From: Anaerolineae bacterium
GTDB taxonomy: Bacteria > Chloroflexota > Anaerolineae > Aggregatilineales > Phototrophicaceae
Reading direction: 5' to 3'
Length of the DNA stretch: 64,000 bases
Assembly: GCA_022823945.1 (NCBI GenBank)
Contig: JAJEBK010000054.1
Coordinates: 1-64,000, forward strand
Below are positions 3,431-38,399 of this stretch, piece by piece. A program made the position numbers and the translations under genes. Position 1 is the first letter of the stretch, and every line of letters begins with the position of its first letter. Under the pieces are notes generated by a model. The model saw only the letters and a program-made list of their open reading frames with translations, was not told where the DNA came from and did not search any database.

Positions 3431-3805
3431 TCAGCCCAGCAAGTCGCCCAGGCCGGGGATATCGCCCAAGCCGCCGGTGATGGCTTCCATGCGCTCGGCG
3501 GCCATTGCCTGGCTTTGCTCAATCGCCTGATTGACTGCCGCCACCAGCAGGTCTTGCAAGTCGTTGAGCCATTCTTCGTCGTCCAGGTCGATGACATCGG
3601 GATTGATCGCCACCGATTGCACCCGTTGATGCCCGGTGATCACCAGCCGGATCGCACCGCCACCAACCGAAACCTCGGTCGTTTCGCTTTCCAGGCTGCT
3701 TTGGGCTTCTGCCATATCCTGCTGCATCTTCTGAAACATGGCCACGGGGTCTGCGCCGCCGGGCAAACCGCCCCTGCCTCGTCTGCTACCGCGTCTTTTG
3801 CTCAT
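3431..3805 (-). CDS. ybaB: Nucleoid-associated protein YbaB/EbfC family
   Basis: A 124-residue protein with a basic Gly/Arg-rich N-terminus and then the YbaB core: 'PVAMFQKMQQDMAEAQSSLE', the strand block 'TTEVSVGGGAIRLVITGHQRV', 'AINPDVIDLDDEEWLNDLQDL' and a C-terminal helix with a Gly-rich tail. The family binds DNA as a dimer. In most bacteria it sits between dnaX and recR; here it directly precedes recR but is separated from dnaX by two membrane-protein genes. The basic N-terminal extension (MSKRRGSRRGRG) is longer than in E. coli. Confidence 0.93.
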   Translation of the reverse strand: MSKRRGSRRGRGGLPGGADPVAMFQKMQQDMAEAQSSLESETTEVSVGGGAIRLVITGHQRVQSVAINPDVIDLDDEEWLNDLQDLLVAAVNQAIEQSQAMAAERMEAITGGLGDIPGLGDLLG

Positions 3806-32957: not shown

Positions 32958-33674
32958 CTAAGGATACAGATAGGGTTGATCGGGTTCATCGACCTGTTCC
33001 AGCGTCTCGACGACGATGACTGGCAGCAGTTCGCCGGCGAAGTTGGCGGCATTCAGCCTGCCTTGCACGCGCACCCAGCTGCCGACCGTCACCGCGTCAA
33101 TGGCATCGGCGCGGGCTGGCATGCCGATCGGGAAGGCATCGGCCACGCAGCAGCTCATGGTAAAACGCGAGACCATGAATTCATCAGCGGCATGAACAGG
33201 CTCGCGGTAGACAAAACCGATCACATCCACGGGCTGGTCATTGAATTCGGCAGGCGCGGCGCGGCTATACTCGCGCAGCCAGTCCAGGATATTGCGGTCC
33301 AGTGGGCTGCGGGCGAATGTCGCGGCATTACCAACGCCGACCGGGCGCAGGCTGATCCCGCCATTGATGGCTTCTATGCCCAAAGAACGCGAGGGTATCA
33401 ACAAAGCCAGCGCGAGCGGAAATGCGGCGATCAGCACGATATCCCAGCCGATGCGGTAATGCTGATGCGCATGAAATGACGGCTTGATGCGCCCCCACAA
33501 GCTCACCAGCGCCAGCAGAAAGAATATGCCCGCGCCGACATAAGCCAGCCAGCCAAACCGTTGATTGATGTAATTGCTCAGGTTGCCGCTGATGATGAGT
33601 TGCGTCAGGTACACGCCCATGCCCAGCAAAATTAGCAGCTTTGCCCAGTTGATACGGCTGTCGCGAGCGCTCAT
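32958..33674 (-). CDS. TIGR03943 (DUF1980) family membrane protein
   Basis: A 238-residue protein with three or four helices in the first 110 residues and a C-terminal soluble beta domain containing 'RFTMSCCVADAFPIGMPARA' and 'WVRVQGRL', both typical of TIGR03943 (YcgQ-type) proteins. It is the usual partner of UPF0718 permeases, as here and in Bacillus ycgR-ycgQ. ATG 33674 is preferred (GAGGGGG upstream); a TTG at 33689 would overlap the upstream stop. The conserved CC in the soluble domain could bind a metal; the function is unknown. Confidence 0.88.
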   Translation of the reverse strand: MSARDSRINWAKLLILLGMGVYLTQLIISGNLSNYINQRFGWLAYVGAGIFFLLALVSLWGRIKPSFHAHQHYRIGWDIVLIAAFPLALALLIPSRSLGIEAINGGISLRPVGVGNAATFARSPLDRNILDWLREYSRAAPAEFNDQPVDVIGFVYREPVHAADEFMVSRFTMSCCVADAFPIGMPARADAIDAVTVGSWVRVQGRLNAANFAGELLPVIVVETLEQVDEPDQPYLYP

Positions 33675-33685
33675 CGTCCGCCCCC

Positions 33686-34630
33686 TCAATATCCCAGCGC
33701 CAGGTTGATGAGCACGCCCGCCAGCAAGTTCATCACGAAGGGCAGCAAGACCAAATACAGCACGATGCGCCGGCGGAAGACGCCCGTGAACATCAAGGTG
33801 CTCTTTATATCGACCATGGGACCAAAGCTCAGAAAGCTGATGATTGCGCCAGTGGTAAATGTGTTGACGAAAGCCAGCGCCAGGAAGCTGTCGACTGTTG
33901 AACAGACGCTCAATATGTAGGCCAGCAACTGCATGAAAAGCACGGAAAGCACATTGCCAGTGCCCAGCGCCAGCAAGCTCTCTTGTGGCACCAGGGTCTG
34001 CATCAGCGCAGCCAGCGCAGAGCCCAGGATCAAGAAGCGGCCCATTTCAAAGAATTCATCGCTGGCGACCCCCACCGCGTGCAGCAATTTTTCGCGCAGG
34101 GAAGCCAGGTCGTGGTCATGATCATGGTCGTGGTCATGACCACGGTCGTCGTGACCGTGTTTAGCGTGACCGCCAGCCATTGCGATCGGCTTCAACACCG
34201 AGCCGGGTTTGGCGGAAATGCCGATGACCAGCGCGACCGTGACCGCGACCACGATGGTAATGACGAAGCGCCCGATAAAGACGGGACCAAAGCCAAAAGC
34301 GATATACGTGCTGGCAAAAACGATGGGATTCATAAAAGGCGCTGCTAACAAAAATGCCACGCCCATGGACACGGGCATGCCTTTGCTGAAGAGACGGCGC
34401 GTCACGGGCACGACTCCGCACTCACAGACCGGGAAGGCCAAACCCAGGAATGCCCCGCCCAGCGCTGCCCCCAGTCGATTACGCGGCATCAGGCGCACGA
34501 TATCGTCGGACTTGACGAAGCTCTCGATCAACCCAGAGGTCAGCGAACCCAGCAGCAGAAAGGGCACCGCCTCGATAAAAATGCCCAAGAAGCGCGTGGC
34601 AAATACTTCGATGTTGACGATGAAATCCAT
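33686..34630 (-). CDS. UPF0718 (YraQ-type) permease with His-rich loop
   Basis: A 314-residue polytopic permease (about eight helices). The diagnostic family block is '[15 protein letters not shown]' (C69-x-C71-G), followed by '[20 protein letters not shown]'. Between the two halves, residues 155-174 form a loop rich in His and Asp ([20 protein letters not shown]), typical of metal-handling transporters. Together with the downstream TIGR03943 gene it makes the standard two-gene unit. Metal transport or trafficking is inferred; the substrate is unknown. Confidence 0.88.
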
Positions 34631-34714: not shown

Positions 34715-34888
34715 TCAAGGTTCGTTGTTGTCCAGCCCACTCAGTGTAAAGGCGAATACCAAAGCGAGCATCGCGCCTGTGGGCATGCCCAGCGCCACAT
34801 TGCCGATGATGATGCCGAAGATGACGCCGACCGCCAAGCCGCAAGCGACGCCAGCCACAAATAGCAGCTGCGTCGAAGGCGGTTTCAT
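34715..34888 (-). CDS. 57-residue membrane peptide at the end of the cyclase operon
   Basis: A small gene read from ATG 34888 to TGA at 34715-34717. It begins M-K-P-P-S-T-Q and has a long glycine-rich hydrophobic stretch, 'LLFVAGVACGLAVGVIFGII', continuing to about residue 50, enough for one long or two short membrane helices with small-residue packing motifs. Its ATG overlaps the stop of the upstream cyclase gene (ATGA), like the overlap between the two cyclase genes, so translational coupling is likely. It could be a membrane partner of the cyclases; there is no homology-based evidence. Confidence 0.65.
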   Translation of the reverse strand: MKPPSTQLLFVAGVACGLAVGVIFGIIIGNVALGMPTGAMLALVFAFTLSGLDNNEP

Positions 34889-36639
34889 GCGCCAGCCTCG
34901 ATATCGTCAAACAAGACTCGGTACAGCGTATTGTATTGTTCGAAGCCGCCTTTCATTTTTGTCGCCTGGAAAGGCTGGGCGCGGATATGCTCGCCCACCA
35001 GCGCATAAGTCGCCGGACTGATGACAATCTCGCCAGGTTCGGCATTTTCTTGCAAGAACTTGCAGGCGTTCGCCGCTTCGCCCAAAGCTCCGTATTCGCT
35101 GCGGTCTGTGCCGCCAACCATGCCCAGCACAGCTTGCCCGGTGTGGATGCCGATGCTGAAGTGCAGCCGGTGGTCGGGCTGGATTACGATGTGCAAAGCC
35201 TGCGCTGCCGCCATGATGTCTTGCGCCGCTCGCAGCGCTCGGATGGCGTGGTCTTCCTGTGGATTCAGCTGCGTATTCCACAAGGCTTTGATGGCATCGC
35301 CCAGGTATTGGTCGACTATGCCGTCCTGGGCATCGATAGCATCGCTTGCCGCGCCCAAATAGCGGTTGATCGTGCGCATGAGGTCTTCGGGCTGCAGTGT
35401 CTCGCCAAAAGCCGTAAAGCCGCGCACATCGGCGAACATGGCGGTCACTGTGCGCTCGACCGGGCTGGTATCCAAAGCGCCAATCGAATCGATATTCGCC
35501 AGCAGCGCCTCGGGGATAAAAGTGCCCAGCAGGCGGCGCTGCTCTTCTTGCTCTTTGCGTTCGGTCAAGTCGTCGATGACCAGCGCCACGCCATAGATCA
35601 CCTGGTCATCGCCACGCAAGGGGCTCGCCACCACTTGCCAATAGCGTTCGCGCCCCTTGTGCAAAAAGCGCTCTGCCCAGATGCGCTGGGTGTGGTCGCG
35701 GCGGACGCGCTCAATCTCGGCATAGAATTCGCTTGACACCGGCGGCAGCAAGTTGGACAAGGGCATGCCAACCGCCGATTCTGTGCTCTTGCCCGTCAGC
35801 GCTTCTGCCGCCAGATTGCAAATGATGACGCAATCGTGACTGTCGATGGTGATGACGCTTGAGCCGATAGACGCGAATATATTGGACAGGCGCACCTGCA
35901 TCTCTTCGATCAACGCCATTTGCGCGCGGATTTCTTCAAACAGGTGGGCATTTTCGATCGCCACTGCCGCTTGCTGGCCGAAGCTGGTCAACAGGTTCAG
36001 TTCGTTTTCTTTGAACAAGCCAGCCATGACGCGGTTGTCGCAATAGGCTACGCCGATAAGTTGGTCGCGCGCTTTTAATGGCACCGCCAAAATGCTGCGC
36101 AGGTTGAAGCCGACGATGCTTTCGCTGGCGCTGATATTGTCGTCTGCCCCGGCGTCCATGGTCATCACCGCCTCGCCAGTTTCCACGACCTGGTTGATGA
36201 CCGACCAACTGACGATGCGGCCGCCAGCCGCTGTTTCTTCTGCGCTCAAGCCCCGCGCGACCTTGAACTCGAGCTCGCCCGTGTCGTGATTCTTCAGCAC
36301 GATATAGCCGCGCTCGGCTTGCGTCAGGCTGATGACAGTGTCCACCACCTGGTTGAGCACCTGGTCGGTTTTTTGCGCGGAATTGATAAGGGCGGTGGTT
36401 TCTGCCAGACGGCGGAGTTGCGCCAACTGCATTTGTGTGTCGACCATATCGACCGAGAGTCGATCGATGCCGCTGCGCAAGTTCCACAGACGGTCGATCG
36501 CGTCGCTGGGCAGGCGGATGTTGCGGCGGCGCAAAAGCTGCTGCTGCTGCTCCAGAAGCGTCTTGACTTCGTCGGCGCGCTCTTTCAAGCCGCGCAACTG
36601 CGACTGAAGCGCGCCAAATGCGCTCGTCCCGCCGGTCAT
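34885..36639 (-). CDS. GAF-PAS class III nucleotidyl cyclase, C1-like (metal-site) subunit
   Basis: A 584-residue cytoplasmic protein: N-terminal coiled coil (about 10-85), GAF domain (about 85-235), PAS domain (about 245-365) and class III cyclase domain (about 375-555). Both metal-binding aspartates are present, D404 in 'MFADVRGFT' and D448 in 'QYLGDAIKALW'. The adenine-contacting Lys position is Q444, the Asp/Thr purine position is G517 ('EYGALG'), and the transition-state Arg position is F528 ('NACKF'), so a homodimer should lack substrate-binding residues. N524 is kept. It is translationally coupled to a complementary cyclase upstream (ATGA overlap), suggesting a heterodimer making cAMP or cGMP. 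Confidence 0.9.
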   Translation of the reverse strand: MTGGTSAFGALQSQLRGLKERADEVKTLLEQQQQLLRRRNIRLPSDAIDRLWNLRSGIDRLSVDMVDTQMQLAQLRRLAETTALINSAQKTDQVLNQVVDTVISLTQAERGYIVLKNHDTGELEFKVARGLSAEETAAGGRIVSWSVINQVVETGEAVMTMDAGADDNISASESIVGFNLRSILAVPLKARDQLIGVAYCDNRVMAGLFKENELNLLTSFGQQAAVAIENAHLFEEIRAQMALIEEMQVRLSNIFASIGSSVITIDSHDCVIICNLAAEALTGKSTESAVGMPLSNLLPPVSSEFYAEIERVRRDHTQRIWAERFLHKGRERYWQVVASPLRGDDQVIYGVALVIDDLTERKEQEEQRRLLGTFIPEALLANIDSIGALDTSPVERTVTAMFADVRGFTAFGETLQPEDLMRTINRYLGAASDAIDAQDGIVDQYLGDAIKALWNTQLNPQEDHAIRALRAAQDIMAAAQALHIVIQPDHRLHFSIGIHTGQAVLGMVGGTDRSEYGALGEAANACKFLQENAEPGEIVISPATYALVGEHIRAQPFQATKMKGGFEQYNTLYRVLFDDIEAGA

Positions 36640-38399
36640 GCGCTTCGCTGCACCTCATAGGCATTCATCCCAGCCGAAAGCCCCTTGCCATAGATTGGCT
36701 CGCGGGGGATGAATTCGAATGGCGGCTGGCTCTTGTGAAAAAGGATGAGATCCAAGGTTGCTTGCCCGATAGTGATGCTGCCGCGGCGGGCATTTTCTTG
36801 TACCCGTTTGGCGGTGTTGATGCTGTGCCCCAGCGCCGTGAACTCGCGCCGGCGGAAGCTGCCGACATTGCCCAGGGTGGCCACGCCGCTGAAGATGCCG
36901 ATGATATAAAAATGCGGGTCTGGCTCAATGCCCAGTTCGCTGTAGAGCTGCAAAAAGCGATCGCGCATCAGCAAGCCGCATTCTACAGCCTGTTGGGCGT
37001 GCTGCTCGTCTGGGTTCAGCTGCGTATTAAAGAGCGCCATAACTTCGTTGCCCATGTATTTGTCGATGATGCCGCCAGTATCGTGAATGCAGCTGGTGGC
37101 GATGGCTTGATACTGATTGAGGATGCGCAGGGTTTCGCTGGGCGCGACATCGGGCAGGGTCGCCCAGGGGCGCACATCGGCGAAAAGGCAGCTTACCTCG
37201 CGCCGCATACCACCCATCTCAATATTGGCGATTTCACTTATTTGGTCCACCATGCCTTCGGGCAAGATGCGCTTCATGGCATTGATGGTGGTTTCATGCT
37301 CGTGCAAGTGGGTAACATCGTCCATCACCAAGGTCACGCCCTGTGTCATTTGGCTGCGGTCTTTCAATGGCGAAAAGGACAGCGAAAGCGCCACCGGTCC
37401 CCTGCCCGGCAGCTCGGCGACGAGATCGAGCGTGTGGTCGGCATCGCCTTCTTTAACCAATTGCAGCTCTTCGCCCAGCTGCAAGGCGGCTTTTTGCAAG
37501 ACGCGCTCTAGTTGGCTTCCCAGCACGGTATCGGGCGCCAGATTGAGGATATCGGCGGCAGCGCGATTGAAAGTATGCACCAGGTCGTTGGAATCGATGG
37601 CGATGATGGCGCTGCCCACCGACGAAAAGATATTGTCCATCAACTCTTTGACGCGCGTAATCTCTGCCAGGATCTGCCCAGCCCGGCTGTACATGCGGGC
37701 ATTATTGATCGCCACCGCCGCCACATTGGCAAACGCCACCAGCAGGGTCAGCTCGCGTTCGGTGAAGATGCCCGCCACCAGCCGATTGTCGACATACACC
37801 GCACCGATGGATTGGTCTTTGAAGCGCAGCGGCACACACAGCACCGACCGCAGCGTGAAATTGAAGATGCTCTGGCTGTCAGACCAGCGCTCGTCCTGGT
37901 AGGCGTTGTCAGCCAAGAGAGGCTCGCCACTGCTGATTACCTGGTTGACCACCGACATGCTGATCTGGGGTGGCGAACCATCGGGCGAAGTCACGCCCAG
38001 CACACCGCTTTCGCTGCTGACGCGGAAGTCATATTGGTCGCTGTCATCCCGGGTCAAAATGATATAACCGCGCTCGGCCTGAGTCAGCAAAATGACCAAT
38101 TCCATCGTCTCTGCCAGGACAGTATCGGCATCCAGCGAGTTGGTCATGCGCACAGCCATATCGCTCAATGCGCGCAGCTGCCGCAGTTCGGTCTGTTCCG
38201 CCAGCACATCGGATTCCAGCCGTTTGAAATCTGCCTGCAATTGGCTGAAGCTGGTGAGAACAGATGACGGCATAGCGAGGCGGTGATGGCGCAACTGGTC
38301 GCGCTGCACAGACAAGGCGGTTTCAATCTGCTTGATCAGGTCTTCAAGCTGCCGCAAATCGCCAAGCAGGCTGGCAGCACCGTTTGCTGAGTCGCTCAT
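36636..38399 (-). CDS. GAF-PAS class III nucleotidyl cyclase, C2-like (substrate-site) subunit
   Basis: A 587-residue paralogue of the next gene with the same order: coiled coil (about 10-85), GAF (about 88-235), PAS (about 255-365) and cyclase domain (about 380-560). It keeps the purine-binding K447 ('IIDKYMG'), T521 ('REFTALG'), and the transition-state pair N528 and R532 ('SINTAKR'). The second metal Asp is N451 ('KYMGNEVMALF') and the first-metal motif is altered after D408 ('FADVRPWATL' instead of GFT). This is the reverse of the defects in the downstream protein. Specificity for ATP or GTP cannot be fixed, though K/T favours ATP. Confidence 0.9.
   Translation of the reverse strand: MSDSANGAASLLGDLRQLEDLIKQIETALSVQRDQLRHHRLAMPSSVLTSFSQLQADFKRLESDVLAEQTELRQLRALSDMAVRMTNSLDADTVLAETMELVILLTQAERGYIILTRDDSDQYDFRVSSESGVLGVTSPDGSPPQISMSVVNQVISSGEPLLADNAYQDERWSDSQSIFNFTLRSVLCVPLRFKDQSIGAVYVDNRLVAGIFTERELTLLVAFANVAAVAINNARMYSRAGQILAEITRVKELMDNIFSSVGSAIIAIDSNDLVHTFNRAAADILNLAPDTVLGSQLERVLQKAALQLGEELQLVKEGDADHTLDLVAELPGRGPVALSLSFSPLKDRSQMTQGVTLVMDDVTHLHEHETTINAMKRILPEGMVDQISEIANIEMGGMRREVSCLFADVRPWATLPDVAPSETLRILNQYQAIATSCIHDTGGIIDKYMGNEVMALFNTQLNPDEQHAQQAVECGLLMRDRFLQLYSELGIEPDPHFYIIGIFSGVATLGNVGSFRRREFTALGHSINTAKRVQENARRGSITIGQATLDLILFHKSQPPFEFIPREPIYGKGLSAGMNAYEVQRSA

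Follow-up and report, generated by a model that had tools for sequence, protein, structure and literature searches.

Reciprocal active-site losses in tandem GAF-PAS class III cyclases of Chloroflexota point to an obligate heterodimer

Introduction

Bacterial class III adenylyl cyclases have been described as obligate homodimers of monomers, in contrast to the pseudo-heterodimers of animals (PMC4821796). The natural heterodimers or pseudo-heterodimers on record are tmAC, sGC, and the chytrid NeoR/RGC proteins, and the chytrid RGC1 and RGC2 retain all of their catalytic residues (PMC8815786). In the bacterial cyclase Rv1625c, the D300A and R376A variants are each inactive singly, and activity is restored when they are co-expressed (PMC4821796). 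No report of a natural bacterial heterodimeric class III cyclase was found in the open-licence literature, which bounds, and does not prove, the novelty of the case described here.

In the C1-C2 dimer of the animal tmACs, there is one site per dimer and a degenerate second site, with the metal Asps supplied by one half and the Lys, Asn, Arg, and phosphate Lys by the other. The sGC alpha/beta and NeoR/RGC systems are each encoded by two genes, and their homologous subunits, equipped with sensor domains, form an obligate heterodimer, which in sGC carries a single active site. The nearest solved sequence relatives of the proteins considered here, CyaC from Spirulina and Cya2 from Synechocystis, are homodimers with two identical complete sites. 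The single-copy GAF-PAS-cyclases of other Anaerolineae share the architecture of these proteins, and in them every chain carries a complete Asp-Lys-Asp-Thr/Ser-Asn-Arg set and no partner gene is present. Here we describe a tandem gene pair, A and B, whose products very probably combine into a single class III nucleotidyl cyclase, an obligate heterodimer with one active site and in all likelihood an adenylyl cyclase.

Results

The window, by which we mean the whole stretch of DNA that was analyzed, comprises 64,000 nt of contig JAJEBK010000054.1 from the Anaerolineae bacterium assembly GCA_022823945.1 (order Aggregatilineales, family Phototrophicaceae). The gene at 36636 is the first of the pair and is called B, and the gene at 34885 is the second and is called A. 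Their features are as follows.

36636..38399, minus strand: gene B, 587 aa, with coiled-coil, GAF, PAS, and class III cyclase domain of the C2-like (substrate/transition-state) type
37707..38132, minus strand: GAF domain of B, residues 90-231 (PF01590, E=6e-17)
37302..37643, minus strand: PAS domain of B, residues 253-366 (Pfam)
36645..37208, minus strand: cyclase domain of B, residues 398-585, with D408, K447, N451, T521, N528, R532, and K572
37047..37049, minus strand: codon for N451 of B, at the position of the second metal Asp (alignment to CyaC/Cya2)
36636..36639, minus strand: ATGA overlap of 4 bp, holding the stop of B and the start of A
34885..36639, minus strand: gene A, 584 aa, with coiled-coil, GAF, PAS, and class III cyclase domain of the C1-like (metal) type
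35956..36366, minus strand: GAF domain of A, residues 92-228 (PF01590, E=2.5e-16)
35551..35889, minus strand: PAS domain of A, residues 251-363 (Pfam)
34915..35457, minus strand: cyclase domain of A, residues 395-575, with D404, Q444, D448, G517, N524, and F528
35056..35058, minus strand: codon for F528 of A, at the position of the transition-state Arg (alignment to CyaC/Cya2)

The ATGA overlap probably couples translation of the two genes. In both proteins a long N-terminal helix region precedes the GAF domain, and the GAF, PAS, and Guanylate_cyc domains each score above the Pfam cut-off. The PF00211 scores are 60.1 bits for A and 38.6 bits for B, against a cut-off of 21.9, and these two are the only PF00211 domains in the whole 3.5-Mb source genome. 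In AlphaFold monomer models (pLDDT 81 and 80), the cyclase domains superpose on CyaC, Cya2, and CyaB at a target TM of about 0.77-0.86. Both chains thus have the class III cyclase fold in these models, and B has not lost it.

Active-site residues were placed by translation and alignment to CyaC and Cya2, and are given in the order metal 1, Lys, metal 2, Asp/Thr, Asn, Arg. Protein A reads D404 Q444 D448 G517 N524 F528, and protein B reads D408 K447 N451 T521 N528 R532. Both metal Asps are present in A, and its transition-state Arg is lost (F528); B has the substrate Lys, the Thr, the Asn, and the Arg, and has lost the second metal Asp (N451). A first-pass annotation, made from the DNA sequence, had listed the deviating residues of both proteins; the translations and alignments bear out every position that it named, and add the N524 kept by A and the D408 kept by B, which it had omitted. 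A homodimer needs all catalytic residues in each chain, and neither chain has them, A being without the Arg and B without metal Asp 2, although N451 might still permit weak metal binding. Only the A-B combination brings a complete catalytic set to a dimer interface. The adenylyl-type substrate residues, Lys plus Asp/Thr, are present in B as K447 and T521, and since this is the Lys/Thr pair that B shares with CyaC, we infer that ATP is the substrate.

Relatives were collected in three steps: 61 genomes from the genus, family, and order; 79 named contigs (GTDB species); and 67 further loci, mostly from the order of the window. Almost all of the named records belong to Chloroflexota, and most are Anaerolineae MAGs. 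Across the first 81 tandem loci, gene order is constant, with B ahead of A and both on one strand; the composite site formed by the metal residues of A and the remaining residues of B is complete in 81/81, and the reverse site is complete in 0/81. The rule was set down after these 81 loci and before the last sampling, where all 64 of 64 full pairs obeyed it, in a test that is not fully independent because that sampling partly overlaps the earlier sets. Removal of duplicates reduced 146 loci to 120 distinct tandem pairs, all within the order of the window. All 120 have a complete composite site, even though catalytic-domain identity falls to 40% among the A proteins and 34% among the B proteins. 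In A, metal Asp 1 and metal Asp 2 are each found in 120/120 and the Arg in 0/120, its position being filled by Leu, Phe, Tyr, Lys, Ile, Trp, Gln, Ser, or Thr. In B, the Lys, Asn, and Arg are each found in 120/120, the Asp/Thr position holds Thr in 115 and Ser in 5, and metal Asp 2 is present in none, having been replaced by Asn, Thr, Ser, Gly, Ala, Glu, Gln, or His. With metal Asp 2 absent from all B proteins and the Arg from all A proteins, no pair can have a complete reverse site.

The first-pass annotation had proposed to survey whether the two substitution sets co-occur in tandem genes of related genomes, and held that its reading, an obligate heterodimer with one functional site, would fail if the sets varied independently or if either gene occurred alone. 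The split does co-occur in all of the distinct pairs, with no independent variation. Apparent lone copies all ended at a contig boundary, and the true singletons are complete-site enzymes and not solitary degenerate A or B genes; complete sites are found in 50 of 50 distinct single-copy relatives, which come from a single family of the order and from elsewhere in the class. These outcomes support the reading of the first-pass annotation. Its list of substitutions needs to be divided by age. Across the order, the core of the split consists of the loss of metal Asp 2 from B and of the Arg from A. The change of the A Lys to Gln (27/120, the Lys being kept in 93) and the change of the A Thr to Gly (10/120, the Thr being kept in 47) came later, and so did the decay that metal Asp 1 shows in B. 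In Rv1625c, D300 is the second metal Asp and R376 the transition-state Arg, so that the laboratory variants are an artificial counterpart, made in a natural homodimer, of the reciprocal loss in A and B, and they are the strongest experimental precedent for the proposed heterodimer.

Metal Asp 1 of B is kept in 70 of the 120 pairs and has decayed in 50, to Glu, Asn, Tyr, Phe, Thr, Ser, or His. This bears on a reading in which B (or A) is an impaired but real homodimer that its partner merely modulates, with the Asn, Ser, or Thr at metal position 2 binding metal weakly. Asn and Ser are able to ligate metals, and the retention of metal Asp 1 in over half of the pairs would fit; however, both metal positions of B are filled by many different residues, as expected where no metal constrains them, and the Rv1625c D300A chimera is inactive alone (PMC4821796). 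We consider an impaired homodimer very improbable, and favor a heterodimer in which B leaves metal binding to A.

The remaining residues of A bear on a refinement of the heterodimer that does not run contrary to it, in which the A-B dimer cyclizes at one site and the second, degenerate site serves as a regulatory pocket, like the forskolin pocket of tmAC. The precedent of tmAC (PMC8815786) and the retention of the A Lys and Thr in many of the pairs would suit such a pocket. The Lys, Thr, and Asn of A nevertheless drift variously, and in most of the genus of the window the first two have become Gln and Ala/Gly, so a regulatory pocket is a tentative proposal that we think somewhat unlikely.

The 61 columns conserved in the singletons, from residue 300 of B onward, were also compared between A and B. 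Those kept by A and lost by B include the Gly after metal Asp 1 (98% of A, 4% of B) and the second metal Asp with its neighbor; among those kept by B and lost by A are N528, R532, M454, and K572, the C-terminal Lys/Arg. Over the 120 pairs, the Gly is found in 117/120 A and 4/120 B proteins, which agrees with the altered motif after D408 that had been noticed in the window's B, and the C-terminal phosphate Lys/Arg is found in 120/120 B and 68/120 A proteins. Positions beyond those that define the split are thus shared out between A and B as they are between C1 and C2 of the animal cyclases.

A rooted tree was built with the active-site columns removed and with phylum-level outgroups. The A proteins are monophyletic (100/97), as are the B proteins (100/98), and A and B are joined at 100/99. 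Complete-site singletons form a grade outside A+B; the sister position belongs to family f2, a single-copy family of the same order, with weak support (86/62). A quick tree of 92 rows gave the same picture. This topology shows a single duplication within the order, and the reciprocal loss likewise occurred once. Of the order's genomes, 141 are 80% complete or better; exactly two matches were found in 120 of them, none in 8, and a single match in each of the 7 from family f2. Four other genomes with one match are explained by contig ends, and two with three matches by genes split across contigs (G637) or by broken frames (G047). Adjacent full-length double copies were found in the order of the window only, in a 250-genome sample of the class and a 300-genome sample of the phylum. 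The two genes are thus inherited together.

Several records call for separate comment. In one genome (L078, G047:C23:257000-267500) the pair is broken into several frames, through assembly errors or because the pair is decaying. A contig titled Pleurocapsa minor, a cyanobacterium (L112, JAHHHY010000002.1), bears this Chloroflexota pair; it and a contig of genome G115, from the family of the window, are both 769663 long, and the record is probably a misnamed or mixed assembly. A 1144-aa frame (L076) that was considered as a natural B-A fusion is merely an open reading frame extending upstream of A. The phylum-level singletons L178, L181, L182, L183, L185, L186, and L187 keep the metal Asps, Thr, Asn, and Arg and have Met or Ala in place of the Lys (DMDTNR/DADTNR), which suggests a further change in substrate recognition.

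In four comparisons, dN/dS of the cyclase domain was 0.15-0.21 for A and 0.10-0.15 for B, and both domains are under purifying selection. Pseudogene decay is ruled out by the open frames, the dN/dS of about 0.10-0.21, and the order-wide conservation. Of the 34 genomes of the genus, 33 (the source and 32 of the 33 others) have no class III cyclase other than the pair above the Pfam cut-off; the exception is G033, with seven, and G031 has one extra match below the cut-off. A role of A and B as regulators of another class III cyclase is thereby excluded for those 33, as far as incomplete assemblies show. Pseudo-cyclase domains are known in other proteins, and each chain here is without an essential residue, so A and B might be catalytically dead pseudo-cyclases that serve, singly or together with another cyclase, as scaffolds responding to a signal or as sensors of nucleotides. 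A composite site that is complete in 120 of 120 pairs is not what drift would leave in dead enzymes, and purifying selection and the lack of another cyclase to regulate also argue against this reading, which we hold to be very improbable, slightly more so than the impaired homodimer.

A PF00027 search found no CRP-type receptor in the source genome. The genome's only PF00027 domain (L173; G000:C46, cNMP domain 3538-3789) forms part of a SulP sulfate-permease/STAS transporter by fusion. It is odd for a cyclase pair to have a transporter as its sole recognizable receptor. Downstream of the pair, at 32958-34630 of the window, lie genes for an ArsP_1 permease and a DUF1980 protein. This neighborhood, with an FAD oxidoreductase upstream and ArsP/DUF1980 downstream, is conserved in the genus only. 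Neighbors kept just within narrow groups say little about function, and the operon context was dropped as a functional clue.

Discussion

The complementary split in 120 distinct pairs makes it very probable that A and B function only in combination. In the mechanism that we propose, A and B would form a head-to-tail dimer in which A gives the two metal-binding Asps and the neighboring Gly loop, and B gives the substrate Lys, the Thr, the Asn, the transition-state Arg, and the C-terminal phosphate Lys/Arg. Each A-B dimer would then have one working site and one dead site, and homodimers, lacking an essential residue at both sites, should be inactive. The ancestor would have been a complete homodimeric GAF-PAS-cyclase that underwent one tandem duplication within the order and then reciprocal loss, as a result of which two different GAF-PAS arms would now gate one site. 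Dimerization of A with B, cyclase activity, and this gating are predictions from residue patterns.

Reciprocal loss leaves the pair with one complete and one degenerate site, as in tmAC and sGC. The pair is therefore class III by fold and residues and tmAC/sGC-like by arrangement, not by descent: its architecture is GAF-PAS, and its duplication is nested within the Anaerolineae singletons, in a tree that did not include tmAC/sGC sequences. Unlike the halves of animal tmAC, A and B are separate bacterial proteins with GAF-PAS arms, have no membrane domains, and stem from their own duplication in Chloroflexota. With sGC and NeoR/RGC the proposed A/B enzyme would share two genes and two sensor-bearing subunits, but those systems are eukaryotic, use H-NOX or rhodopsin sensors, and are GTP-specific.

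We think it likely that a bacterial lineage independently reached the sGC/tmAC solution, an obligate heterodimer from two genes with one site, in which the second pocket would be free for regulation and two sensors would have to agree for cAMP to be made. Complete single-gene relatives, the duplication, and the graded later decay survive together in one bacterial class. With these living intermediates, the passage from a homodimer to an obligate heterodimer that is inferred for tmAC and sGC can be tested directly.
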